Shown piece after piece: positions 423-36,516 of a stretch of DNA of 64,000 bases. The stretch's first letter is position 1. The number at the start of each line of letters is the position of its first letter. The notes beneath the pieces were generated by a model. The model had not been told where the DNA came from. It did no database searches and was given only the letters and a program-made list of their open reading frames with translations. The position numbers and the translations under genes are program-made. Source of the stretch: Myxococcaceae bacterium (lineage in GTDB: Bacteria; Myxococcota_A; Polyangia; Polyangiales; Ga0077539); the NCBI GenBank assembly GCA_004297725.1, contig SCUS01000151.1, forward strand, positions 62,001 to 126,000, given 5' to 3'.

Positions 423-518
423 ATCGATTTTTCCGGAGCCCTCTCCGAGCCCCCCCTCGGGGCCCTCCCTCACTGCCATTCCGTTGTGTGCCCGCGGGCG
501 CTCTGCCATGGTCGCGCG

Positions 519-3500
519 ATGGCGCACGAATCCGCTCTCCCGCCGCACCTTTCTGAACTCTTCCAGGACGCCGTGGAGCACCACCAGGCGGGGCGTGCGG
601 CGGAGGCCGAGGCGGCCTACCGCGCCTTGCTCCAGCAGGAGCCCGACTTCCCCGGCGCGCTCGCCAACCTCGGCGACCTCGTCCATGCCCGCGGCCTCAC
701 CGGGGAGGCCTTCGCCCTCTTCGACCGCGCCATCGCGCTGGCCCCCCACGACCCGGTGGCCCACATCAATCGCGGCCGCGCGCTGCTGCTCGAGGGGAGC
801 ACCGCCGAGGCCGAAGCGGCATTTCGCGCCGCCCTCGCCATCGATCCCGACGACGCCCGGGCGCTCAACAACCTGGGCGAGCTCCTGCTGAGGCGCAGCG
901 CCTTCGAGGAGGCCCACACCCTGCTCGCGCGCGCCGTACGCGTGGCGCCGGACTCCGCGTCGGCGCACACGACCTTCGGCAAGCTCCTGCTGCTGGGCGG
1001 GCGCATCAGCGACGCCCTCGTGCTGCTCGAGCGCGCCGTGGCCCTCGCGCCGGCGAGCGCCGCGGCCCGCTCCGTCCTCGCGGGCGCCCTATGGACCGAA
1101 GGGCGCATCGAGGAGTCCCTCCGTCAGCACCGGGAGGCGCTGCGGCTGAGCCCCGGCCTCTTCGAGACCTGGTCGCTGCTGCTCTTCACCATGCACTGCG
1201 GCGCCGGCCGCTCCCCCGATGAGCTCTTCGCCGAGCACCTCCGCTTCGGCCGGGCCCTGGAGCGCAGCGTCGCCGCCGAGCGCCGCGAGCTCATCGCCGA
1301 CCCGACGCCCGGCCGACGGCTGCGGGTAGGCCTCCTCTCGCCGGACCTGCGTCGGCACCCCGTCGGGCTCTTCGTGGCGCCGGTGCTCGAGGCCCGCTCG
1401 CGCGAGGCGTTCGAGCTCTTCGCCTACAGCAGCAAGGCCTCCGCGGACGACGTGCAGGCCCGGCTCCGCGCGGCCGTCGACCACTGGATCGACGCCTCCG
1501 ACCTCACCGACAAGGCCCTCACCGCCCGCATCCGGGAGGACCGCATCGACCTGCTGGTCGACCTCGCCGGCCACACCACCAACGGGCGCATGGGCGTGCT
1601 CGCCCGCCGGGCCGCCCCGGTGCAGCTCTCCTGGCTGGGCTACCCCGACACCACCGGGCTAGGCACCGTGGACTACCGCATCACCGACGCCGTGGCCGAC
1701 CCGCCCGGAGAGAGCGACGCGCGGCACACCGAGGAGCTCCTGCGGTTGCCTGGAGGCTTCATGGCCTGGAGGGCGACCTCCGCCCCGGCCGACCCGGAGC
1801 CGCCCTGCGTGAGCGCGGGTCACGTGACCTTCGCGAGCTTCAACAACGCCTCGAAGCTCTCCCCCGAGCTGGCCCGGTGCTGGGCGGAGATCCTTCGGGC
1901 GGTGCCCGGGTCGAGGATGATCCTGAAGCACCAGGCCTTCGAGCGGGAGGCCAACCGGGCGAGGGTGAGGGCGTGGTTCGAGGAGGGGGGCATCACCCCC
2001 GATCGGCTCGAATTCGTGGGCTTCGCGGCGCGCTGGCAGGACGCCTACGCGCTCTACGCCAGGGTCGACGTGGCGCTCGACTCCTTCCCCTACAACGGCG
2101 CGACCACCACCTGCGAGACGCTCTCGCACGGGGTTCCGGTCGTGGCGCTCCGGGGGGAGACGCACGCCGGGAGGGTGAGCGCCTCGATGCTCACCGCCCT
2201 GGGAGAGACCTCGCTCCTCGCCGAGACCGAGGCGGAGTACGTGGCCCTGGCGACCGCCCTGGCCCGCGACCCCGCGCGCCTCGCGACGCTGCGCGCCTCG
2301 CTGCCGAAGCGCTGGAGCGAGAGCACCGTGGGCTCGCCCGAGCGCCTGGCGAGGGAGCTCGAGGACGCGTACCGCACGGCCTGGAAGCGCACGCTCGAAG
2401 GGGCGCCTCGCAAGGTCGTACCCGCCACGGACGAGGCCACCCTCGGCGCGCACGACTACGACCTGGTCGAGTGCGAGGACGGGGTGATGGTGGCGGTCGC
2501 GCCCTCGCTGGAGAGCCCCACCGCCTATGTGCTTCGCGAGCAGGGCGGGTGGTTCGAGGAGGAGCGAGCCTTCGTCAGCGCGTTGACGCAGCCCGGGGCG
2601 AGGGTGCTCGACGTGGGCGCCAGCTACGGCCAGTACGCCCTTCCGCTGGCCAGGGCGGTCGGCGCCTCCGGGCGGGTGTGGGCCATCGAGCCCTCGGCGC
2701 GCACGGCGGCCTTCCTGCGGGCGAGCGTCGCCCGCAACGACTTCGCGCAGGTGACGGTGGTGCAGTCCGCGATCTCCGACCAGGTCGGCGAGGCCTCGCT
2801 CCACGTGGGGGCGTCGAGCGAGCTGGCGAGCCTCACGGCCGAGGCCGCGCTGCACTCCTCGACCGAGCGGGTGGCCGTGCAGACCCTCGACGCGCTCCGA
2901 GGGCCGCTCGACCTCCGCGGGGTCGATCTGGTGAAGCTCGACGCCGAGGGCGAGGAGGCCGCCATCGTCCGCGGAGGGGCCCGCTTCTTCGCCGAGGAGT
3001 CGCCGCTGGTGCTCGCCGCCCTCCGGCGCGATGGAGGCCTGCGACACGCCTTCCTGCTCCTCGGATACGACTGCTTCCGGCTGGTTCCGGGGCTTCAGGT
3101 GCTCGCGCCCGCGCCCTCCGACGACGGGCTCGATCGCTTCTCGCTCAACGTGTTCTTCTGCAAGCCCGACCGGGCCGAGGCGCTCGCCGCGAGGGGCCTC
3201 CTCGTGCTGCCGGGGCCGTCCCTCGACGCCCGAGGCGCGGCCGGCCGGTGGCGGGGCGACCTCGCCGACCGCCCCTACGTCAGCCAGATGCTCCCCTACT
3301 GGGAGGCCCGCCACGCCGGGCGCGACGCGCTCGAAGACGCGCTCGACCGCTGGTGCGACGCGCACGACACCGCGCTCCCGGTCGCGTCGCGGCTGCGCTC
3401 TCTGGAGACCTCGCTCGAGCTGCTCTCCGCCGCGCTCGACCAGCACCCCACGCTGCCCCGGCTGGTCACGGTGGCCCGCGTCGCGTGGGAGCTCGGGCTG

Positions 3501-3809
3501 CGCGAGACCGCCGTCGGGGCGCTGCGCACCGCGGTCGAGTGGTTCACCCACGGGGAGGGCATCTCCCTCGATGAGCCCTTCCTCGTGCCCTGTCCCCGCT
3601 TCGACGCGATCCGCATCCCGAGCAACGAGGTGACCTGGTGCTTCGCGGCGGTGCTGGAGCAGTTCGAGCGGCTCCGCAGCTTCTCGTCGTACTACGAGGG
3701 CAAGGGCTCTCGCCCCATCCTCGACTCGCTCTCGCAGCTCGGCTTTATGGGGGAGGAGATGCTCCGGCGGCGGGAGCTCATCGACGCCCGCTTCGGCCCG
3801 GAGGAGTGA
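519..3809 (+). CDS. TPR - O-GlcNAc transferase (SPINDLY/GT41-like) - FkbM methyltransferase fusion
   Basis: A 1096-residue cytoplasmic protein. Residues about 15-215 are tandem TPRs. Residues about 265-625 are a GT41-type OGT domain with DLRRHPVG (His280), GYPDTTGL, SFNNASKLSP, ILKHQAF and DSFPYNGATTTCETL. Residues about 640-880 are an FkbM-family SAM methyltransferase with VLDVGASYGQY (696-706) and VKLDAEGEE (805 on). The last 200 residues are a helical region I do not recognise. The ATG at 519 was chosen because it begins right at the first TPR; an upstream GTG at 486 is possible. Adjacent to flagellin and the hook genes, it probably glycosylates flagellin on Ser/Thr and O-methylates the sugar. 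The target is inferred from position. Confidence 0.85.
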   Translation: MAHESALPPHLSELFQDAVEHHQAGRAAEAEAAYRALLQQEPDFPGALANLGDLVHARGLTGEAFALFDRAIALAPHDPVAHINRGRALLLEGSTAEAEAAFRAALAIDPDDARALNNLGELLLRRSAFEEAHTLLARAVRVAPDSASAHTTFGKLLLLGGRISDALVLLERAVALAPASAAARSVLAGALWTEGRIEESLRQHREALRLSPGLFETWSLLLFTMHCGAGRSPDELFAEHLRFGRALERSVAAERRELIADPTPGRRLRVGLLSPDLRRHPVGLFVAPVLEARSREAFELFAYSSKASADDVQARLRAAVDHWIDASDLTDKALTARIREDRIDLLVDLAGHTTNGRMGVLARRAAPVQLSWLGYPDTTGLGTVDYRITDAVADPPGESDARHTEELLRLPGGFMAWRATSAPADPEPPCVSAGHVTFASFNNASKLSPELARCWAEILRAVPGSRMILKHQAFEREANRARVRAWFEEGGITPDRLEFVGFAARWQDAYALYARVDVALDSFPYNGATTTCETLSHGVPVVALRGETHAGRVSASMLTALGETSLLAETEAEYVALATALARDPARLATLRASLPKRWSESTVGSPERLARELEDAYRTAWKRTLEGAPRKVVPATDEATLGAHDYDLVECEDGVMVAVAPSLESPTAYVLREQGGWFEEERAFVSALTQPGARVLDVGASYGQYALPLARAVGASGRVWAIEPSARTAAFLRASVARNDFAQVTVVQSAISDQVGEASLHVGASSELASLTAEAALHSSTERVAVQTLDALRGPLDLRGVDLVKLDAEGEEAAIVRGGARFFAEESPLVLAALRRDGGLRHAFLLLGYDCFRLVPGLQVLAPAPSDDGLDRFSLNVFFCKPDRAEALAARGLLVLPGPSLDARGAAGRWRGDLADRPYVSQMLPYWEARHAGRDALEDALDRWCDAHDTALPVASRLRSLETSLELLSAALDQHPTLPRLVTVARVAWELGLRETAVGALRTAVEWFTHGEGISLDEPFLVPCPRFDAIRIPSNEVTWCFAAVLEQFERLRSFSSYYEGKGSRPILDSLSQLGFMGEEMLRRRELIDARFGPEE

Positions 3810-10539: not shown

Positions 10540-11430
10540 TCAGTCGGCTGGCGCCGCGGCCGCGTCGTCCATGACGGCGGCGTCGGTGCCGGCGGCGCTG
10601 GCGTCGCCCGCGGTGTCGGGGCTCGCGGCGCTGGCGTCACCCACCTCGGCGCGGATCGCGGCGACCGGGTCGACGGCGGCGTCGGCGTCGAGGGCGGAGT
10701 CGTTGGCCGGGTCGTGGATCGAGACCACGATGTCGACCCGACGGTTCTGCTGGCGGCCGTCGTCGGTGGTGTTGGGAGCGATGGGGTGAAACTCCCCGTA
10801 GCCCGAGGCGGAGAGGTGATCCGGGGGGAAGGCCGCGCCCGCGATCACCTGGAGCACCGAGACGGCGCGGGCGGTCGAGAGCTCCCAGTTGGAGCGGTAG
10901 CGCGAGGTGCGGATGGGGTTGCCGTCGGTGTGCCCCTCGACGCGCATGTTGACGGGAAACTCCTTGAGCGAACGGGCGAGGTTGGTGAGGATCGTCAGGG
11001 CGGCGTCCTTCACCGAGGCGTCGCCGCTCTCGAAGAAGACGTGGTCGGGCATGCGCAGGACGAAGTCGTTGCGGCGGCGGATCACCCGGACGGACTCCAT
11101 CCCCGTGTTGTGGGTGATGGCCCCGTTGAGGGCCTCGGCGAGGTTCTCCAGGCTGAACACCACGTGGGGGTCGGTGACCTCGCGGCGCTCCGCGCGCCGG
11201 GGGGGCGTGTTGGTGTTGGCCATCATCAGCCCGTCGCTGCCGCGAGGGACGATCGTCACGCCGGTGGCGCCCGCGAAGCTCTCGGAGAAGGCCCCGAGGC
11301 GGCGCTGGTCGACCTGCGACGTCGAGAACATCACCACGAAGAACGCGAACAACAGCGTGATGAAGTCGGCGTAGCTGATGAGCCAGCGCTCGTGGTTGAC
11401 GTGCTCCGCGTGCTTCTTGCGCCTGCCCAT
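10540..11430 (-). CDS. motB: Flagellar stator protein MotB
   Basis: 296 residues. One N-terminal membrane segment, WLISYADFITLLFAFFVVMFS, carries the proton-binding Asp22. A periplasmic OmpA/MotB peptidoglycan-binding domain follows, with VEGHTDGNPIRTSRYRSNWELSTARA and GEFHPIAPNTTDDGRQQNRRVDIVV. The last 45 residues are an Asp/Ala-rich acidic tail not usual in MotB, resembling the DA-rich tails of other exported proteins in this window. It lies directly downstream of motA. Confidence 0.95.
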   Translation of the reverse strand: MGRRKKHAEHVNHERWLISYADFITLLFAFFVVMFSTSQVDQRRLGAFSESFAGATGVTIVPRGSDGLMMANTNTPPRRAERREVTDPHVVFSLENLAEALNGAITHNTGMESVRVIRRRNDFVLRMPDHVFFESGDASVKDAALTILTNLARSLKEFPVNMRVEGHTDGNPIRTSRYRSNWELSTARAVSVLQVIAGAAFPPDHLSASGYGEFHPIAPNTTDDGRQQNRRVDIVVSIHDPANDSALDADAAVDPVAAIRAEVGDASAASPDTAGDASAAGTDAAVMDDAAAAPAD

Positions 11431-11470: not shown

Positions 11471-12241
11471 TTACGCGCGCGCGGCCTTCGCCGGGCTGTG
11501 GTCGTGGAGGAAGGCCGAGAGGCGCTCGCGCACCAGCTTGGGGTTCATCCCCTCCTGGATCGCGAGCACGCCCACCAGGGTGAGCTGGCGGAGGTTGGAC
11601 TCGTCCCGCACCTGCAGCTTGATGCGCCCCCCCAGCGGCAGGAAGACGATGTTCGCCACGCCCACCCCGTAGATGGTCGCCACGAAGGCCGCCGCGATGC
11701 CGTGGCCCACGGCGTTGATGTCCGAGAGGTTGCTCATCACGTGGATGAGCCCGAGCACCGCGCCGATGATCCCCACCGTCGGGGCGTAGCCGCCGCCGGC
11801 CTCGAAGACCTTGGCGGCCTCCTCGCCGTGCTCCTCCTGCTTGTCGATGATGATCTCCATCGTCTCGCGCAGCGCGTTGGAGTCGGCCCCGTCGATGGCC
11901 ATCATCAGCGCCTTCGAGAGGAAGGGGTCCGACGCGTTGGAGGCCACCTTCTCCAGCGCCAGGATGCCCTCGAGGCGCGCCTGGTTGGCGTACCCGACGA
12001 TCTCCTCGATGAGGGCCCGCGCGTCCTGCGTGGGCTTCTTGAAGGTCTTGCCCGCGGCCTGGAGCGCGGCCTTCAAGGTCGCGAGGGGGTACTGCACGAT
12101 GACGGCGCCGATGGTTCCGCCGAGCACGATGAGCGCGGCGGGGCCGCCGAGCACCGAGCTCATGTGGCCGCCCTCCAGCGCGTTGCCGAAGAGGATCGCC
12201 ACGAAGGCGACCACCATCCCGATGATGGGTCCGGGCTGCAT
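11471..12241 (-). CDS. motA: Flagellar stator protein MotA
   Basis: 256 residues with four predicted membrane segments, including IIGMVVAFVAILFGNALEGG and the conserved PTVGIIGAVLGLIHVM. The cytoplasmic loop (residues about 60-145) contacts FliG. Start is the ATG at 12241, which overlaps the flbD stop as TGATG, so an upstream extension in this frame would run into flbD and is rejected. With MotB it forms the ion-driven stator. Confidence 0.95.
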   Translation of the reverse strand: MQPGPIIGMVVAFVAILFGNALEGGHMSSVLGGPAALIVLGGTIGAVIVQYPLATLKAALQAAGKTFKKPTQDARALIEEIVGYANQARLEGILALEKVASNASDPFLSKALMMAIDGADSNALRETMEIIIDKQEEHGEEAAKVFEAGGGYAPTVGIIGAVLGLIHVMSNLSDINAVGHGIAAAFVATIYGVGVANIVFLPLGGRIKLQVRDESNLRQLTLVGVLAIQEGMNPKLVRERLSAFLHDHSPAKAARA

Positions 12242-12516
12242 CAGCGCTCGTCCCGCCGCCGCTGCAGGTCCGCCGGCCTGCCCACCCTCGGGGGATCGCC
12301 CTCGATGGGCCCGAGGGGCACGCCCGCCGGGTCGACCATCCTCACCAGGCGCCGGTACTCCAGCACCGTCTGGATCAGCTCGTCGAGCGTCTCCCTCACC
12401 ATCAGCTTCTCGCCGTTGATGAGGAAGAGCGTCGTGTCGGGCGTCGCCTCCACCCACGAGATGTGGTCGGGGTTGATCGCGATGGTGTGGTGGTTGAGCC
12501 GGGTGAGTTTCAACAT
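12241..12516 (-). CDS. swrD: FlbD/SwrD family flagellar protein
   Basis: A 91-residue protein starting MLKLTRLNHHTIAINPDHISWVEATPDTTLFLINGEKLMVRETLDELI, the FlbD (EndoFlbD/SwrD) family signature. This small cytoplasmic protein usually lies just before motAB; in Bacillus SwrD it raises motor torque. It is not the Caulobacter NtrC-like FlbD. The last 25 residues are a Pro/Arg-rich extension beyond the usual 60-70 residue core. First gene of the minus-strand operon, with a sigma-54 type promoter about 30 bases upstream. Confidence 0.88.
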   Translation of the reverse strand: MLKLTRLNHHTIAINPDHISWVEATPDTTLFLINGEKLMVRETLDELIQTVLEYRRLVRMVDPAGVPLGPIEGDPPRVGRPADLQRRRDER

Positions 12517-12544
12517 GCGCGGAGGTCCATCTCCCGCCATCGCA

Positions 12545-12561
12545 GGGCAACCCTCGGGCCA
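12545..12561 (-). promoter_or_regulatory. Sigma-54 (RpoN) promoter of the flbD-motAB-flg operon
   Basis: The minus strand reads TGGCCCGAGGGTTGCCC, with GG and GC separated by exactly 10 bases. The RpoN consensus is TGGCAC-N5-TTGCW; only the A of the -24 box and the final W differ. The -12 GC lies about 30 bases before the flbD ATG, leaving a short leader of about 20 bases. The activator gene is not in the window. Confidence 0.7.
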
Positions 12562-12618
12562 CCCGCCGCGCTCCCCTCGCGGCACGCTTCGTGTAGCCGC
12601 TCCGATCGAGGTTCTCCC

Positions 12619-15423: not shown

Positions 15424-16401
15424 ATGGGCGGGCAGATGCCTACCGGAGCCGAGAAGGCCGTCCTCTTCCTGCTCTCGCTCGACGAGGAGATCGCTCGCCC
15501 CATCGTGAGCGAGCTGGGGGTCGCCGAGCTCCACAAGCTGCGCGCCGTGGCCTCCACGATGCGAGAGGTCCCCGCCGGGGCCATCGAGGAGACCTGGCGG
15601 GAGTTTCTCGAGCGCTCCCGCAGCGCCGTGGCCGTGCCCCGAGGCGGCCTGCCCTACCTGCGCCGGCTCTCGGTGGTGGCGCTCGGCGAGGAGCAGACCA
15701 ACGCCGTCTTCGAGGACGGCATCACCAGCCCCTTCTCCCGGCTGGAGAGCGCGCCCCCGGACGCCGTGGTGGCCCTGCTCAGCCGGGAGTCGCCCCAGAT
15801 GGCGGCGGCCATCCTCACCCGGCTCGATCCGGCGGCGGCCGCGGCCATCCTCTCGGCCATGCCGCCGGAGCGCCAGATCGCCGTCGTCGAGAACGTCAGC
15901 CGCTTGACGGAGCTTCCCGCCAAGGTGCTCGAAGACGTCGCCGTCGCGCTGGTCGAGGAGCTCCCCACCGCCGACGCCAACACCCTGGTGACCGTCGACG
16001 GCGTGGCCCGCGCGGCCGCCATGCTCAACGCCATCGGGCCGTCGGCCTCCAACATCCTCAAGGACTTCGACGCCTCCGACGCAGCCCTCGCGGGCCGGGT
16101 GCGCCAGGCGATGTTCACCTTCGACGACCTGCGCCGGGTCGACGCCCGCGCCATGCGGGAGATCCTGATCGAGCTGCCCTCCGAGCGCCTCGTCATCGCC
16201 CTGAAGGGAGCGTCGCCGGAGGTCACCGCGGCGATCTTCGCGGGCCTCTCCGAGCGCGCCGCCGAGCTGGCCCGCGACGACCTGGAGGTGCTCGGCAAGG
16301 TGCGCCGCGCCGACGTCGAGGCCGCCCGGAGAGAGCTCGTCGAGGTGGCCCTGCGGCTCGCCGCCGACGGGCGCATCGACCTCGGCCGTGAGGAGGCGTA
16401 G
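15424..16401 (+). CDS. fliG: Flagellar motor switch protein FliG
   Basis: 325 residues. The N-terminal domain (TGAEKAVLFLLSLDEEIARPIVSEL) binds FliF. The middle part has SPQMAAAILTRLDPAAAAAILSAMP with the EHPQ-like region replaced by ESPQ, and the C-domain has MFTFDDLRRVDARAMREILIELPSERLVIALKGASPEV, the charged torque helix region. Length is normal. It forms the C-ring top where MotA acts. Confidence 0.95.
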   Translation: MGGQMPTGAEKAVLFLLSLDEEIARPIVSELGVAELHKLRAVASTMREVPAGAIEETWREFLERSRSAVAVPRGGLPYLRRLSVVALGEEQTNAVFEDGITSPFSRLESAPPDAVVALLSRESPQMAAAILTRLDPAAAAAILSAMPPERQIAVVENVSRLTELPAKVLEDVAVALVEELPTADANTLVTVDGVARAAAMLNAIGPSASNILKDFDASDAALAGRVRQAMFTFDDLRRVDARAMREILIELPSERLVIALKGASPEVTAAIFAGLSERAAELARDDLEVLGKVRRADVEAARRELVEVALRLAADGRIDLGREEA

Positions 16402-22124: not shown

Positions 22125-22640
22125 ATGAGCGACGACAAGAACGACAAGGCCCGCAAGGGCGACGCCCCCGCTCCCTCCCCGAAGGGCGTGAGCGTGGTGG
22201 CCCTCATCCTCACGGCGCTCGTGTCCGCCGGAGCCGCCGGCGGGGCCTCGCTCTATGTGAGCAAGCGCACCGCCCACCCGGCTCCCTCGGCGCACGCCGC
22301 CCAGGCCGCCGCGCACGCGCCCGCCGCGCACGCGCCCCCCGGCTTCACCCTGCCGCTCGATCCCTTCGTGCTGATGTCCGCCGACAGCCATCGCGCCTTC
22401 CACGCGATGCGCACCACCCTGGCGCTGGAGTTCGCCCCCGCCACCCGCGAGGAGGACGTCCGCCCCTACGTCGCCCGCATCCGCGACGCGGCGCTCTCGA
22501 TGCTCCGCGCCATCCCCTACGAGGTCGCCTCCGACCCCGCCCAGATGGACCACCTCCGCGCCGAGCTCCAGACCCGCTTCCAGGCCACCGGCGTGCGGGG
22601 CATCGCGCGGGTGCTCATCACCGACCTCGTGGTCCAATGA
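22125..22640 (+). CDS. fliL: Flagellar basal body-associated protein FliL
   Basis: 171 residues. One N-terminal membrane segment (VALILTALVSAGAAGGASLYV), a short Ala/His/Pro linker, and a periplasmic FliL domain (FTLPLDPFVLMSADSHRAFHAMRTTLALEFAPA ... GVRGIARVLITDLVVQ). FliL surrounds the stator and raises torque. Its stop overlaps the start of fliM, the usual arrangement. Confidence 0.9.
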   Translation: MSDDKNDKARKGDAPAPSPKGVSVVALILTALVSAGAAGGASLYVSKRTAHPAPSAHAAQAAAHAPAAHAPPGFTLPLDPFVLMSADSHRAFHAMRTTLALEFAPATREEDVRPYVARIRDAALSMLRAIPYEVASDPAQMDHLRAELQTRFQATGVRGIARVLITDLVVQ

Positions 22641-23482
22641 GCGCCGACGAGCCCGTCGCCACCGGACCGCTGCGCTTCGCCCTGGAGGGCCAGGGGTTTC
22701 GTCGCGCGGTGGCGATGATCGAGGGGGAGAGCACCCGCCTCGCCACGGCGCTGCGCCGCGCGCTCCCCTTCCTCGCCCGCCGCGAGGTGCCCATCACCCT
22801 CGGCTGGGCCCGGGCGCTCCCCATGAGCGACGCGCTGCGCGACCTTCCCCGGCCCGTCCATGTCTCGGCCCTCACGGTCGAGCCGGGCCGCGCCCCCGGC
22901 GCCCTCGTGCTCGACACCAACGCCCTGCGGCTGCTGCTCGACGGGGTGCTGGGCGGCGACGGCCGGGCGCTCCCCACGCTCGACGCCGCCGGGCTCACGG
23001 CCCCGCAGCGGGCCCTCGTGGGCCGCACCGTCGAGGGCATCGTGCGCGCCGTCGGCGAGGTGCTCGCCTCCCGCATCGGCGTGAACATCGCCCTCGCCTC
23101 CGACCGCCCGGACCCCAACGCCAGCGATGGGACCTCCATCGTCTGCGCCTTCATGCTCGGGGCCGACCTGGGGCGCGTGCTGCTGGTGCTCCCCAAGAAC
23201 GCCCTGCTGGGCCCTGGCGCCGCCATCACCTCCGCGCTCCCGGCCCCGGAGAACTACAACCCGCACGTGCTGCGCGCCCTCGACGGCGTCGACCTCGAGC
23301 TGGTGGTCGAGCTCGCGAGGGTGCCCGCGCGCCTCGACGTGGTGCTCGGGCTGAAGGTGGGCGACACGCTGCCGCTGGGCATCCCGGTGAGCGATCCGGT
23401 GAGCGTGCGCATCGACGACAAGCCGATGTTCCGAGGCAGGCCGACCACCGTCGCGGGCTGCATCGCCGTCCGCATCGAGTGA
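22637..23482 (+). CDS. fliM: Flagellar motor switch protein FliM, N-terminally short
   Basis: 281 residues against the usual 320-340. The middle CheC-like domain is present, with LLLDGVLGGDGRALPTL (the GGxGxP-like motif) and LTAPQRALVGRTVEGIVRAVGEVLASRIG, as is a SpoA-like C-domain (VELARVPARLDVVLGLKVGDTLPLGIPVSDPVSVRIDDKPMFRGRP). It begins MSADEPVATGPLRFALEGQGF and has no EIDALL-type CheY-P binding segment. The ATG overlaps the fliL stop, so an extension would have to run inside fliL in another frame. It builds the C-ring with FliG and FliN. Confidence 0.88.
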   Translation: MSADEPVATGPLRFALEGQGFRRAVAMIEGESTRLATALRRALPFLARREVPITLGWARALPMSDALRDLPRPVHVSALTVEPGRAPGALVLDTNALRLLLDGVLGGDGRALPTLDAAGLTAPQRALVGRTVEGIVRAVGEVLASRIGVNIALASDRPDPNASDGTSIVCAFMLGADLGRVLLVLPKNALLGPGAAITSALPAPENYNPHVLRALDGVDLELVVELARVPARLDVVLGLKVGDTLPLGIPVSDPVSVRIDDKPMFRGRPTTVAGCIAVRIE

Positions 23483-23557: not shown

Positions 23558-23887
23558 ATGAGCCTGCAGGTACCTGCCATCAACCCCGAGACGGGCCTCC
23601 CCATCGAGGTCGCGGCGCCTTCCGCCGACGCGCCGCCCGCCTACCACCTGCTGCGAGACGTCGAGGTCGAGATCACCGTCGAGATCGGGCGCCGCCAGAT
23701 GCGCATCGCCGACGTGCTGAAGCTCTCCCCCGGCCAGACCCTCTCGCTCTCCAAGGCCGCGGGCGAGCCGCTCGACCTCTACGTCAACGGCCGCCTCCTC
23801 GGCCGCGGCGAGGCCGTCGTCATCGGCGACCAGTACGGCGTGCGCATCACCGAGCTCATCTCCGCCGAACCCGGAGGCCGCCCATGA
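23558..23887 (+). CDS. fliN: Flagellar motor switch protein FliN
   Basis: 109 residues. The SpoA/FliN domain covers residues about 30-100: LLRDVEVEITVEIGRRQMRIADVLKLSPGQTLSLSKAAGEPLDLYVNGRLLGRGEAVVIGDQYGVRITELI. A GGAGGAG ribosome-binding site precedes the ATG. It forms the base of the C-ring. Its stop overlaps the fliO ATG (ATGA). Confidence 0.94.
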   Translation: MSLQVPAINPETGLPIEVAAPSADAPPAYHLLRDVEVEITVEIGRRQMRIADVLKLSPGQTLSLSKAAGEPLDLYVNGRLLGRGEAVVIGDQYGVRITELISAEPGGRP

Positions 23888-27673: not shown

Positions 27674-29751
27674 GCGCGCAGGCCCCCACCCGAAGCAGCG
27701 ACCGCTGGGACATGGTGGTGCCGCTCGGCATCATCGGCGTCGTCCTGATGATGGTGCTGCCGGTGCCGGCGCCGCTCCTCGACGTGCTGCTCTCCTTCTC
27801 CGTCGCCCTGGCGGTGGGGGTCTTCCTCACGGCGCTCTTCATCGAGGAGGCCCTGGAGTTCAGCGCCTTCCCGGCCTTCGTGCTCATCGCCACGTTGCTG
27901 CGCCTCAGCCTCAACGTGGCCACCACCCGGCGCATCCTGCTGCACGGCGCCGAGGGTCCGAGCGCCGCGGGGCACGTCGTCGAGGCCTTCGGCCGCTTCG
28001 TGGTCGAGGGCAACGTGCTGGTCGGGCTCGTGGTCTTCCTCATCCTGGCGGTGATCAACTTCGTGGTGATCACCAAGGGCGCCGGGCGCGTCGCGGAGGT
28101 GGCCGCGCGCTTCACCCTCGACGCGATGCCCGGCAAGCAGATGGCCATCGACGCCGACCTGGCCTCCGGCGCCCTCGACGGCGAGGGCGCCCGCAGCCGC
28201 CGCAAGAACCTGGAGCGCGAGGCCGACTTCTTCGGCGCCATGGACGGCGCCAGCAAGTTCGTCCACGGCGACGCCATCGCGGGCCTTCTCATCACGGCCA
28301 TCAACCTCGTCGGCGGCCTCGTCATGGGCCTCTCCTCGGGGATGGACCTCGCCCAGGCCGGCGAGACCTTCTCGGTGCTGAGCGTGGGCGACGCGCTCTC
28401 CACGCAGATCCCCGCGCTGCTGATCTCCGCCGCGGCGGGCATCGTGGTGACCCGGAGCGCCACCCGAGAGCCCATCGGCCGGGCCTTCAGCGACCAGCTC
28501 CTCGGCCGACCGAGGCCCGTGCTGATGACCGCCGGAATCATGACGCTCCTGGCCCTGGTGCCCGGGATGCCCGCCTTCCCGTGCCTGCTGATGGCGGGCG
28601 GCCTGGTGCTGGCCTCCCGCTCCCGCACCCGCAGGACCGAGGCCGCCACCGCCGCCGCGGGGGCCTCCTCCGAGCCGAGGCGCTCGGCCTCCGAGGAGGT
28701 CGACGCCGCCCTCGGGCTGGAGACGCTCACCCTGGAGGTCGGCTACGAGCTCGTCGGCGTGGTCGACACCGCCCGCGGAGGAACCCTCCTCGACCGCGTG
28801 GCCGCCCTTCGCCAGCAGCTCGCGCGCGACCTCGGCCTGGTGATGCCGCCGGTGCACGTGGGCGACAACCTGTCGCTCCAGCCCGGCGGGTACCGGGTGC
28901 TCATCCTGGGCAACGAGATCGGCCGGGGGCTCTGCCGCGCGGGCCGGCTGCTGGCGGTCGACCCCAGCGGGATGTCCCCCGCGCTCGACGGGGAGCGCAC
29001 CACCGACCCGACCTTCAACATGCCCGCGTGGTGGATCGCCCAGCGCGACAAGGAGCTCGCCGAGGCCCTCGGGTACACGGTGGTCGACCACGCGACGATC
29101 CTCGCGACGCACCTGGGCGAGCTGCTCCGCACCAACGCCCACCGTCTGCTGGGTCGCCAGGAGGTGCAGCACCTGCTGGAGGTGCTGGCGCGCACGGCGC
29201 CGAAGCTGGTCGACGACGTGGTGCCGGCGCTCATCTCCCTGGGCGACCTGCTGCGCGTGCTGCGCAACCTGGTCCGCGAGTCGGTCTCCATCCGGGACAT
29301 GCGCACCATCCTGGAGTCGCTGGCGGAGTTCAGCGCGCAGACCAAGGACGTCGAGCAGCTCACCGAGCTGGTGAGGGAGCGCCTCGCGCCGCAGATCACG
29401 TCGCGCTTCAAGGGCGGGGACAGCAGCGTCGCCGCCATGACGCTCGACGCCTCGCTCGAGGACATCCTCCGCCGCTCGCTCCGGGACATCGCCGCGGGCA
29501 CCGGCGGCGCCCTCGACCCTGCGCTGCTCCGAGGCGTGGTGCAGTCCGCCGAGCGCGCGGTGGGAACCTTCAACGCCCAGGGCGTCACACCGCTGCTGGT
29601 GTCTCCGCCGGACCTTCGCCGCTACGTGAGGGCGATCTTCGAGTGGAAGCTCCCTCAGCTCGCGATCGTGTCCTTCCGGGAGATCGAGCCGAGCGCCCAG
29701 CTCCGGGTGATCGAGCGCCTCGGCCCGACCCATGCACTGGACGGCCGCTGA
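27670..29751 (+). CDS. flhA: Flagellar export gate protein FlhA
   Basis: 693 residues. About eight N-terminal membrane segments include the FHIPEP-family block FIEEALEFSAFPAFVLIATLLRLSLNVATTRRILLHG and VINFVVITKGAGRVAEVAARFTLDAMPGKQMAIDADL. The cytoplasmic ring domain (about 330-690) has PPVHVGDNLSLQPGGYRVLILGNEIGRG and the C-terminal LVSPPDLRRYVRAIFEWKLPQLAIVSFREI. It is the export engine and docking ring. The flhF reading frame begins near its 3' end. Confidence 0.97.
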   Translation: MSAQAPTRSSDRWDMVVPLGIIGVVLMMVLPVPAPLLDVLLSFSVALAVGVFLTALFIEEALEFSAFPAFVLIATLLRLSLNVATTRRILLHGAEGPSAAGHVVEAFGRFVVEGNVLVGLVVFLILAVINFVVITKGAGRVAEVAARFTLDAMPGKQMAIDADLASGALDGEGARSRRKNLEREADFFGAMDGASKFVHGDAIAGLLITAINLVGGLVMGLSSGMDLAQAGETFSVLSVGDALSTQIPALLISAAAGIVVTRSATREPIGRAFSDQLLGRPRPVLMTAGIMTLLALVPGMPAFPCLLMAGGLVLASRSRTRRTEAATAAAGASSEPRRSASEEVDAALGLETLTLEVGYELVGVVDTARGGTLLDRVAALRQQLARDLGLVMPPVHVGDNLSLQPGGYRVLILGNEIGRGLCRAGRLLAVDPSGMSPALDGERTTDPTFNMPAWWIAQRDKELAEALGYTVVDHATILATHLGELLRTNAHRLLGRQEVQHLLEVLARTAPKLVDDVVPALISLGDLLRVLRNLVRESVSIRDMRTILESLAEFSAQTKDVEQLTELVRERLAPQITSRFKGGDSSVAAMTLDASLEDILRRSLRDIAAGTGGALDPALLRGVVQSAERAVGTFNAQGVTPLLVSPPDLRRYVRAIFEWKLPQLAIVSFREIEPSAQLRVIERLGPTHALDGR

Positions 29752-29764
29752 GGTTGAGAGCGAG

Positions 29765-30970
29765 ATGATGAGACGTCAGGTCTTTCGCGGGCGCACGCTG
29801 GCCTCGGCCCGTCAGGCCGCCGAGCAGGTGTTCGGCAGCGGCGCCGTGCTGCTGACGACCCGCGAGGTTCGCCGCCCCGGGCTCGCTGGAATGCTCGGCA
29901 CCACGGAGATCGAGGTGGTCGCCGCCGCCCCGGAGGCCGAAGCCCCGCCCTCCGTCCCTCCGCCTCCACCGTCGCGCCCGTCGACGCAGCTCTTCGCCCA
30001 GGAGGCCTACGCCCCCGAGCGTCGGCCCGACGTGGCCGCGGTCGCCACCCTCCGCAACGAGCTCCGCTCCGAGCTCCGCTCGCTCAAGGCCTCCTCGCTC
30101 CAGTCCGATCGCGGCGCCCCCGACCTCCTGGCCGAGCTCGCCGCGCTGCGCGTCGCCATCGAAGACGCGACGCCCGCGCTCCGCCTCGGCGACGAGGCCG
30201 CCGCGATGCTCCGCCGGCTGGGCATCGAGGGCTCCGCGGCCGCCGGCGTGGCCCGCTGGCTCAAGGGCCCGGAAGACGGCCGCGCCCTCTCCGAGCGGAT
30301 GCGCGACGCGCTCTCCGAGGCGATCAAGGTGACCGCCTGGCCGATCGCGACCCCGGGGCGCGCGGTGATCGCCCTCGCCGGGCCGACCGGCGTCGGCAAG
30401 ACGACGACCATCGCCAAGCTGGCGGCGCACGCCACCATCGACCGGCGCTCGGTGACCCTGGTGACCTGCGACGGCTTCCGCGTGGGCGCGGTCGAGCAGC
30501 TCCAGCGCTACGCCACGCTGCTGGGCGCCCAGTTCGTCTCGGTGGGCACCGCCGAGGAGCTGGCGCGCTGCCTCGACGAGGCCACCACCGACCTGGTCTT
30601 CGTCGACACCGCGGGCCGCCGACCGACCGCCGACGGCGCCGAGAGCCTGCTCTCCGCGCAGTCCTTCGGGGAGCGCGACCGCGGCTACGCGCGCCACGTG
30701 CTGCTCTGCCTCCCGGCCGCGCTCCGGGCGCAGGACGCGGCCTCGGCGCTCAAGACCTTCGGCTCGCTCGACCCGACGGCCCTGGCGATCACCAAGATCG
30801 ACGAGACCTCGGCGCCGTCGGGGCTGCTCCACGGGACGGCCGCCTCGGGGCTCCCGCTCTCGGTGCTCTGCGCGGGGCAGGAGGTGCCCGAGCACATCGC
30901 CCAGGCGACCGTCGCGGCGATCCTCGACCAGCTCGTGCCGCGCACCGGCGCCCGGGGATCGGCGGCATGA
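29765..30970 (+). CDS. flhF: SRP-type GTPase FlhF
   Basis: 401 residues from the ATG at 29765. The N-terminus RRQVFRGRTLASARQAAEQVFGSGAVLLTTREVRR is the FlhF B-domain start. A Pro-rich linker and an NG domain follow, with Walker A GPTGVGKT (206-213), VTLVTCDGFRVGAVEQLQRYA, VFVDTAGRRP and ITKIDE. FlhF fixes the site and number of flagella, usually polar. An ATG at 29732 inside flhA is an alternative start; the chosen one aligns better and has a GAGAG upstream. Its usual partner flhG does not follow. Confidence 0.92.
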   Translation: MMRRQVFRGRTLASARQAAEQVFGSGAVLLTTREVRRPGLAGMLGTTEIEVVAAAPEAEAPPSVPPPPPSRPSTQLFAQEAYAPERRPDVAAVATLRNELRSELRSLKASSLQSDRGAPDLLAELAALRVAIEDATPALRLGDEAAAMLRRLGIEGSAAAGVARWLKGPEDGRALSERMRDALSEAIKVTAWPIATPGRAVIALAGPTGVGKTTTIAKLAAHATIDRRSVTLVTCDGFRVGAVEQLQRYATLLGAQFVSVGTAEELARCLDEATTDLVFVDTAGRRPTADGAESLLSAQSFGERDRGYARHVLLCLPAALRAQDAASALKTFGSLDPTALAITKIDETSAPSGLLHGTAASGLPLSVLCAGQEVPEHIAQATVAAILDQLVPRTGARGSAA

Positions 30971-31686
30971 ACGTCCCTGCGCTCGGCGTGGTGGAGGGCG
31001 ACGCCCGCAGGGCGCTCGACAAGGCGCAGTACGACCGGTTTCTCCCGATCGTGCGGCGCATCGCCATGCGCGCGGCGCGGCGGGTCCCGCGGCACATCGC
31101 GGTGGCCGACCTGGTGAGCTGCGGCTGGCTCGGGCTGATGGAGGCCTTTCACCGAGCGACCCCGGGCATGGCCCCGGAGGAGTTCGAGGCCTACGCGTCG
31201 TACCGCATCCGCGGCGCGATGCTCGACTACCTCCGCAGCCTCGACACGGGCTCGAAGCACATGCGCCGCGCCTCGCGCGACCTCTCCCGCACCATCAAGA
31301 ACCTCGGTCAGTCCCTCGGCCGCGCCCCGACGGAGCAGGAGATCGCCCAGTCGCTGGGCATGACCGAGCCCGGCTACCAGGAGCACCTGGCCCGGCTCTC
31401 CGAAGCCGGGATGACCCGGCTGGAGCTGTTCGACTTCGACCACGACAAGGTCGACTCCGGGGTCGAGCCCGCCGACGACGCCCTCGCGCACCGCCAGCTC
31501 GCTGACGCGCTCGCCGACGCGGTGACGCAGCTCCCGGCGCGGCTCCAGATGGTGCTGGCGCTCTACTACCAGGAGGAGTGCACCCTCAAGGAGATCGGGG
31601 CGGTGCTCAACCTCAGCGAGTCGATGATCTCCCGTCTCCACACCGAGGCGGTGCACCGCCTCCGCGCAGCGATCGGAAGGGAATGA
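30967..31686 (+). CDS. fliA: Flagellar sigma factor sigma-28
   Basis: 239 residues. Region 2 is AVADLVSCGWLGLMEAFHRATPGMAPEEFEAYASYRIRGAMLDYLRSLD. Region 3 has RTIKNLGQSLGRAPTEQEIAQSLGM, and region 4 has LYYQEECTLKEIGAVLNLSESMISRLHTEAVHRLRA. It directs late flagellar genes such as flagellin. The ATG overlaps the flhF stop; flgF follows four bases after the stop. FlgM at 6439-6705 is the antagonist. Confidence 0.96.
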   Translation: MNVPALGVVEGDARRALDKAQYDRFLPIVRRIAMRAARRVPRHIAVADLVSCGWLGLMEAFHRATPGMAPEEFEAYASYRIRGAMLDYLRSLDTGSKHMRRASRDLSRTIKNLGQSLGRAPTEQEIAQSLGMTEPGYQEHLARLSEAGMTRLELFDFDHDKVDSGVEPADDALAHRQLADALADAVTQLPARLQMVLALYYQEECTLKEIGAVLNLSESMISRLHTEAVHRLRAAIGRE

Positions 31687-34758: not shown

Positions 34759-35201
34759 TGGATACTTTCCCCAACACCGCCATGAGATCCACCGCGCTGG
34801 CCTGCCTCGTGGGATCGCTCGTCTCCACAACCTCGGTCGCGTGGGCGCAGGAGCTCGTCGACGGCACCGGGTACTTCCGCGGCCCCGCGTCCGGGGTCGT
34901 CACCGGCGACGGCACGGGGTACTTCCGCGGGGTGGCGCCCTCCGCGCCGCCTCCGCCGCGTAGCCCGGTCGCGACCGTGCCCCCGGCTCTCACGCCCTAT
35001 GGCCAGGGCGCCTGGTGGTCCTGGGGATTCCCCTCCTGGGGATGGTTCGGCAGTCCGCTGTTGGGCAGTCGCCTCTTCCCATATGGATATGGGACACCGC
35101 GCGCTCTCTTCCCTACAACGGGCCGTCTTCTTGACGCCTCGATGCATCGACGCTCTCCTCGCTCGCCGATGCCTCTCGTCAACGAATACCGTCCCTGGTG
35201 A
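34758..35201 (+). CDS. Exported protein with DGTGYFRG repeats, function unknown
   Basis: 147 residues. A signal peptide (MRSTALACLVGSLVSTTSVAWA) is followed by two copies of DGTGYFRG (VDGTGYFRGPASGVV and GDGTGYFRGVAPSA), a Pro-rich stretch, a Gly/Trp-rich segment (GAWWSWGFPSWGWFG) and a basic C-terminus. The ATG at 34758 overlaps the CBS-gene stop; an ATG at 34782 begins exactly at the signal peptide. It is read with the CBS and PilZ genes, the latter starting at a GTG in its stop codon. Surface location is inferred. Confidence 0.55.
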   Translation: MDTFPNTAMRSTALACLVGSLVSTTSVAWAQELVDGTGYFRGPASGVVTGDGTGYFRGVAPSAPPPPRSPVATVPPALTPYGQGAWWSWGFPSWGWFGSPLLGSRLFPYGYGTPRALFPTTGRLLDASMHRRSPRSPMPLVNEYRPW

Positions 35202-35854
35202 GCTCCATGCTGAAGGTCGACCCGTTCGAGCACCTGGGCCCCGGCGAGGTGGTGTCCATCGACGTCGGCGACAACATCTCGCTCTCCTTCCGCGTCGAGC
35301 GCACCGACCCCGAGCAGCGCCGGGTGCACCTGCACCTGGAGGGGGACGAGCGCTCGGCCGACGGCGTGGAGTTCGTCGACTGGCGCGTGTTCATGCTGCT
35401 GGGCCAGCACCGGTCGAGCAGCTCCGGCCCCGTGGCGGTGAGCGTCCCCACCGAGCTCCGCGGTCTGTCTCGAAGCCCGCTGCGGCTGGAGCTCGAGGTG
35501 CTCGAAGGCACCGCGCTCATGCAGCGCCGCAGCCTGTACCGCACCACGCGCCCAGGCATCCGGGCGAGGGTGCGGGTCGACGGTGCGACCGAGACCGTGC
35601 AAGGAGACGTCCTCGACCTGAGCGCGTCGGGCCTCGCGCTGAGCACCTACGTCTCTCCTCCCTCGACGGGCACCGGGCTCGACCTCGAGGTGCTGCTCCC
35701 GACGGGTGAGACCTTGCCCGCGCGCGGTCGCCTGGTCGGCGCGATGGCCCGGGGCTCCGGGGGCGACGACTGGCGCTGGAACGTCCAGTTCGACGACCTC
35801 CCCGCGGCGGTGCGCGACGCGCTGCGGTCCTACATCCACCGCGCGCAGCCGTAG
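35198..35854 (+). CDS. PilZ-domain protein, YcgR-like (1)
   Basis: 218 residues. An N-terminal YcgR-N-like beta domain (about 10-105) is followed by a PilZ domain. Its c-di-GMP motifs are intact: RxxxR at Arg111-Arg115 in QRRSLYR, and DxSxxG at Asp140-Gly145 in DLSASG. YcgR-type proteins bind c-di-GMP and slow the flagellar motor; the nearby motor genes fit such a role. GTG start at 35198 overlaps the previous stop; an ATG lies three codons later. Confidence 0.85.
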   Translation: MSSMLKVDPFEHLGPGEVVSIDVGDNISLSFRVERTDPEQRRVHLHLEGDERSADGVEFVDWRVFMLLGQHRSSSSGPVAVSVPTELRGLSRSPLRLELEVLEGTALMQRRSLYRTTRPGIRARVRVDGATETVQGDVLDLSASGLALSTYVSPPSTGTGLDLEVLLPTGETLPARGRLVGAMARGSGGDDWRWNVQFDDLPAAVRDALRSYIHRAQP

Positions 35855-35859
35855 CGGCG

Positions 35860-36516
35860 ATGGACGCGCCCGATCCCTTCACCCTGATCAGCGCCGGCAT
35901 GCGGGTGCAGCTCGAGCTGGCTCCCGAGCAGCGGGTGCGCCTCGTGGTGGACTTCGTCCGCAAGGGCCTCTCGACCATCTGGTGCCATCGCGGACCCGAG
36001 CGCGAGCTGCCCGAGCTCGCCGCCGGATCGCGGGTGCTCACCCTGGAGGCCGGTGACATGAGCGGGCTGCTGAAGGTCCCCGTGATGCCGACCGCCGTGG
36101 CCGTCGCCGATCGCTCCGACGGCAGGGTGCTCACGGTCAGCCTGAAGGTCCTGTCGGGCACGATCTGGGTACAGCGGCGCAGGTACATCCGTCTCCGCAA
36201 CCCGCCCATGGCGCTGGACCTCCGGCTCGCGGGGGCGACCCTCGGGGTCGAAGCGCGAGCGCTCAACCTCGGCGGCGGCGGCCTTGCGGTGGCGGTGCCG
36301 ACCGACGGCTTCCGCCCCGGCGACCAGGTGGAGCTGCAGTTCAGGATCGCGAACGTCGCCCCGCTCCCGGCGCGAGGAACGGTGCTGCGTGTGGAGCCTC
36401 TGCTCGGCGGCGACTCGGTGCTGGCGATCCAGCTCACCGAGATCCGGGAGAGCCACCGTGACCGCCTGGTGAGCCTGATCTTCCGAGAGCAGACGCGACG
36501 TCGCATCGCGGAGTGA
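35860..36516 (+). CDS. PilZ-domain protein, YcgR-like (2)
   Basis: 218 residues, same architecture and length as the preceding PilZ protein, so probably an old tandem duplicate. RxxxR is at Arg107-Arg111 (QRRRYIRLR). The second motif is NLGGGG (Asn136-Gly141), where Gly replaces the usual Ser of (D/N)xSxxG, so c-di-GMP affinity may differ. It follows the first by five bases and would be co-expressed. Confidence 0.82.
   Translation: MDAPDPFTLISAGMRVQLELAPEQRVRLVVDFVRKGLSTIWCHRGPERELPELAAGSRVLTLEAGDMSGLLKVPVMPTAVAVADRSDGRVLTVSLKVLSGTIWVQRRRYIRLRNPPMALDLRLAGATLGVEARALNLGGGGLAVAVPTDGFRPGDQVELQFRIANVAPLPARGTVLRVEPLLGGDSVLAIQLTEIRESHRDRLVSLIFREQTRRRIAE

Follow-up and report, generated by a model that had tools for sequence, protein, structure and literature searches.

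Composition of the motor locus

The stretch of DNA analysed here, referred to as the window, comprises 64,000 nucleotides (C197:62001-126000) of a 9.4 Mb assembly that is 94.6% complete. FliM, FliN, FliG, MotA, MotB, FlhA, FlhF and FliA are all encoded intact at its flagellar locus, and two adjacent PilZ proteins are encoded downstream of the flagellar genes (Table 1).

Table 1. Flagellar and neighbouring features of the window
Feature	Position	Strand	Evidence and remarks
1107-aa protein	486..3806		TPR repeats, family 41 (OGT-like) glycosyltransferase and FkbM-type methyltransferase domains
motB, stator gene	10540..11430	-	MotB_plug and OmpA
motA, stator gene	11471..12562	-	MotA_ExbB; true start further inside the ORF
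fliG, complete, with MFXF segment (MFTF)	15424..16401	+	Pfam FliG N, M and C domains; 3hjl alignment
fliL	22125..22640	+	Pfam FliL, 44.8 bits; stop overlaps fliM start (ATGA)
fliM without N-terminal docking peptide, 281 aa	22637..23482	+	Pfam, NCBIfam, PDB sequence match, AlphaFold model, Foldseek
fliN, 109 aa, SpoA domain	23558..23887	+	FliMN_C, 91.9 bits; TIGR02480 over cut-off
flhF	29732..30970	+	TIGR03499, 171.6 bits, E 4e-50, just below cut-off of 174.15
fliA (sigma-28)	30967..31686	+	FliA/WhiG, 190.6 bits, over cut-off; 4-base overlap with flhF end
Two PilZ proteins	35198..36516		PilZ domain in both

FliM lacks its N-terminal docking peptide

In the FliM of the window, the C-terminal SpoA domain was recognised by Pfam (FliMN_C, 60.4 bits), as was, more weakly, the middle domain (PF02154, 24.7 bits, E 2.5e-5, cut-off 27). 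The full-length equivalog TIGR01397 scored 65.9 bits (cut-off 219.6), the protein being shorter and divergent. The FliM of Salmonella (8umd) was the top PDB sequence match, and Salmonella C-ring FliM chains ranked first when the AlphaFold model (pLDDT 80, computed from a 46-member family alignment) was searched with Foldseek. Like canonical FliM of Salmonella and E. coli, the protein has a middle domain, a GGxG segment and a SpoA domain, has FliG and FliN as partners, and is encoded in the order fliL-fliM-fliN. The FliG-binding GGxG segment reads GGDG at residues 106-109, opposite GGDGR of Salmonella, and its retention along with that of the SpoA domain agrees with the original prediction. Unlike the canonical protein, it has neither the N-terminal EIDALL peptide nor the linker.

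Residue 26 pairs with Salmonella residue 52, which places the start near Salmonella residue 27; the protein thus begins at the edge of the middle domain, with the peptide and the preceding linker gone. In the model the first helix runs from residue 16, and residues 1-17 are predicted to be disordered. The protein, initially estimated to start about 40 residues late, is 30-40 residues short of most FliMs of the phylum and ~25 residues short of Salmonella FliM.

CheY-P docks on the N-terminal peptide of FliM and thereby brings about switching of rotation; the EIDALL-type peptide is common in FliMs, but not universal. The absence of an EIDALL-like segment, claimed from the protein start at the outset, was borne out more widely, as no EIDALL-type CheY/FlhG peptide was present in FliM, in the upstream frame or in the flanking ORFs. 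The fliL stop overlaps the fliM ATG and therefore leaves no intergenic room for a peptide, and since the reading frame 5' of fliM is occupied by fliL in another frame, a misannotated start cannot hide one either. A search for an alternative upstream start likewise found no peptide-coding sequence: the best peptide score of the in-frame stretch 5' of fliM was -11 in a position-weight model built from the bearer sequences themselves, in which bearers reach at least 7.3 and mostly more than 18. On these results the protein is an ordinary C-ring FliM from which the docking peptide and its linker are missing.

The 94.6% complete genome yielded no second FliM, and its SpoA proteins number three: FliM, FliN and an orphan SctQ-like protein. 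The idea that CheY-P might dock on FliN instead, by way of a transplanted peptide, found no support, as FliN comprises no more than its SpoA domain preceded by a short N-terminus that has no EIDALL motif (the alignment starts at residue 29). A DNA pattern for the EIDALL peptide, covering one strict form of the motif only, gave eight matches genome-wide, and no switch or flagellar protein had one at its N-terminus.

Peptide-less FliMs across the phylum

The FliM survey drew on 57 relatives and 379 genomes across the phylum, mostly MAGs, and the N-termini of the sequences were read. A peptide such as ILSQNEIDALLSAV or LSREELDALL was present in most FliMs of the phylum, even in those with a very divergent core. 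The peptide was missing from 22 FliMs, which belong to the family of the window (f1) and to families f7, f12, f57, f29, f33, f35, f42 and f59. Their upstream frames scored -3.3 or less in the position-weight model, and none of their neighbouring ORFs contained the peptide. A pan-genome scan with a four-sequence alignment named only two MAGs.

On the tree of the FliM core, five changes are required to account for the peptide label, and well-supported branches force four of these. Alignment across relatives, which had been suggested as a check on the original prediction, found the missing N-terminus to be common to eight FliMs of f1, f7 and f12, that of the window included, and these eight form one peptide-less clade (support 100/99). 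Families f2 and f3, which belong to the same order as the family of the window, retain the peptide. Peptide loss is an inherited state, and probably dates to the ancestor of these three Polyangiales-like families.

Peptide loss tracks flhG

FlhG binds FliM/FliN through the N-terminus of FliM, which links completion of the C-ring to FlhF (PMC11236974, PMC12826062), and its gene consistently sits immediately behind flhF (PMC12826062). In the window, flhG is absent from the position directly after flhF, where fliA overlaps the flhF end, and no FlhG-type P-loop ATPase was found within ~164 kb of contig around the locus.

Reading the flhF neighbourhood in 53 genomes revealed that flhG directly follows flhF in 28/34 peptide-bearing genomes versus 0/16 peptide-less ones (Fisher p 1.5e-8, uncorrected for kinship), and in most peptide-bearing relatives it sits between flhF and fliA. 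The genes following flhF are FlhG-like, several of them with DQAxxLR, and two peptide bearers outside the tree (G112 and G044) also have flhG after flhF. In 15/16 peptide-less genomes fliA comes at once or within a few hundred bases after flhF, and flhG does not fit between the two where fliA overlaps flhF (f1) or follows it directly (f12 and f7); the remaining genome, G096, has neither flhG nor fliA after flhF. No FlhF-grade match was found in the peptide-less families f33, f35, f42 and f59, which therefore carry no information on adjacency. When kinship is taken into account, only two to three pairs are independent, of which the supported ones agree or tie and none opposes; a sign test cannot reach 0.05 here, because only about three independent peptide losses have flhF.

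Six peptide bearers, three of f44, two of f50 and G122, have no flhG after flhF, and loss of flhG therefore does not force loss of the peptide. The relation is one-way: where there is no peptide there is no flhG next to flhF, but not the reverse, and the peptide was found missing only where flhG is also missing from its usual place. This pattern speaks for a loss of flagellum-number control more than for a mere absence of chemotaxis genes. In f44 (L146, L151 and L204), an HDOD-like gene follows flhF in the stead of flhG, and the FliM peptide is retained.

Chemotaxis genes and CheY

No chemotaxis gene was seen in the window, as had been noted, but a che cluster begins 12.3 kb past its end on the same contig (L008:12255-20000 and L009:1-1523, G000:C197). 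The cluster encodes, in order, CheW, CheR, CheW, an MCP with CHASE3, CheA-REC, CheB and a receiver-GAF-like-histidine kinase; the identities of CheB and of the final gene come from inspection of their sequences. All three CheW domains of the genome lie within it. CheA carries the receiver, no single-domain receiver gene (free CheY) was seen in the cluster, and the genome had no match to CheD and no CheA detectable by PF02895. With a receiver on CheA, no free CheY in the cluster and no CheD, the system departs from flagellar-class (F) chemotaxis. It looks Wsp-like, with CheW, CheR, CheW, MCP, CheA-REC and CheB together in one cluster as in a Wsp-type system, but its output is a receiver-histidine kinase rather than a GGDEF response regulator; the likeness is one of layout.

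CheD and CheA (PF02895) were then sought in 70 FliM-bearing genomes. CheD was present in 8/22 peptide-less versus 6/45 peptide-bearing tree rows (p 0.05), opposite to the expected direction, and CheA showed no association with the peptide (p 0.43), with the proviso that PF02895 misses receiver-fused CheAs like that of the window's genome and its zeros are not proof of absence. Loss of the peptide as a consequence of lost chemotaxis was rejected, as CheD and CheA were not rarer in peptide-less genomes.

The rival explanation that fares best is that CheY-P still controls the motor by docking on the middle domain of FliM or on FliN, the peptide being dispensable. In f12, relatives whose FliM likewise lacks the peptide possess clusters that include CheA, CheD and a free CheY-like regulator, and in G054 a CheV-like gene (CheW domain, 312 aa; L094:4775-5713, G054:C322) lies on the flagellar contig ~6.5 kb downstream of the peptide-less fliM. 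FliG of the window keeps MFXF, and the reversal hardware thus appears intact. Judged by the CheD and free CheY-like genes, chemotaxis may still reach the peptide-less motor in f12. The chemosensory systems of f12 could, however, serve surface motility, and their CheY-like proteins do not have W58 and K91 of E. coli CheY. These two residues are listed as CheY residues for FliM binding (PMC9321776), but the comparison is weak for distant lineages, in which systems unlike that of E. coli may use other residues. As the only che cluster found in the genome of the window offers no free CheY, and CheD and PF02895 CheA are missing as well, I regard CheY-P control by another route as unlikely there. 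One che contig, in G003, was left out because its G+C (0.67 versus 0.73-0.75) raised the possibility of contamination.

Integrity of fliM and the PilZ pair

Flagella are patchy in the family of the window, most members of which gave no FliM match, and the FliM score under the Pfam cut-off could likewise suggest that fliM is degenerating, with the flagellum left as a relic or used solely for export. This is very unlikely, given that the motor genes are intact, that both congeners start fliM alike at 89% identity and in the same gene order, and that the peptide-less state persists across three families.

The original prediction had also pointed to the two PilZ proteins, described as YcgR-like, as possible controllers of the motor; on this reading they would act c-di-GMP-dependently in the place of CheY. 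Both contain PilZ domains, and there is precedent in the PilZ protein MotL of Shewanella putrefaciens, a regulator of that species' non-chemotactic lateral motor that pulls down with FliG2, FliM2 and FliN2 (PMC8203827). The N-terminal domain of YcgR was not recognised in either protein, and the pair does not resemble a YcgR-type motor brake in this respect. The second protein is not tied to the flagellum: its orthologue in G001 lies on a different contig from the flagellar genes, the congener G004 keeps it although no fliM was detected there, and no counterpart turned up in the flagellates of f12 or f7. The pair was consequently rejected as a dedicated motor regulator, a role that I consider very unlikely; given that G004 keeps the second protein, the two probably have a function unrelated to the flagellum.

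FlhG as a second client of the peptide

The N-terminal peptide of FliM is usually discussed only in relation to CheY. The original prediction omitted it as a site for FlhG; flhG disappears together with the peptide. The explanation I favour, at a probability of roughly 0.55, is that the peptide may have decayed with neither FlhG nor CheY as its client, leaving a motor that is complete without the usual entry point for CheY. FlhG is the second known client of the peptide, loading FliM/FliN onto FlhF-bound FliG and acting on flagellar number. The peptide would have been retained for as long as FlhG or CheY used it, and would have decayed once neither did. FliM/FliN would then join the C-ring without the FlhG checkpoint, CheY-P would be unable to switch the motor by the N-terminal route of FliM, and the motor would either run in one default direction or be tuned by something other than CheY-FliM. 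The earlier proposal that CheY-P may not act through FliM is retained as far as the usual N-terminal site is gone, while FliN with a peptide and the PilZ proteins are unsupported as its substitutes.

More tentatively, and with the odds somewhat against it, it may have been FlhG and not CheY that maintained the peptide in the Myxococcota, such that loss of flhG behind flhF left the peptide free to decay. If FlhG did maintain it, the C-rings of several lineages assemble without the FlhG checkpoint, and their motor is CheY-blind at FliM. The recurrent loss of the peptide, which tracks flhG and not the tested chemotaxis genes, suggests that control of flagellar number contributed to its conservation. 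The loss also identifies lineages in which motor switching, if there is any, must enter elsewhere, and in which FlhF works without FlhG.

FliM2 of Shewanella putrefaciens reportedly has no CheY peptide either, as Bubendorfer et al. are said to have described in 2014. The likeness may extend to a switch outside chemotactic control in reports on the lateral motor, which is described as unresponsive to chemotaxis (PMC8203827) and is not affected by FlhF and FlhG (PMC11236974); lateral FliM and FliG of gamma-proteobacteria are divergent (PMC8042155). FliM2 differs in belonging to a second system beside a chemotactic polar one, whereas the FliM of the window is the only one found and flhF is retained.

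Further observations

The 1107-aa protein adjoins the flagellar hook genes and is a candidate flagellin glycosyltransferase. The third SpoA protein of the genome, an orphan SctQ/FliN-like protein of 377 aa, is encoded at L013:8770-9903 (G000:C115), where no secretion genes were seen nearby. A gene like it, with similar neighbours, is present in G011, a member of the family of the window that gave no FliM middle-domain match.
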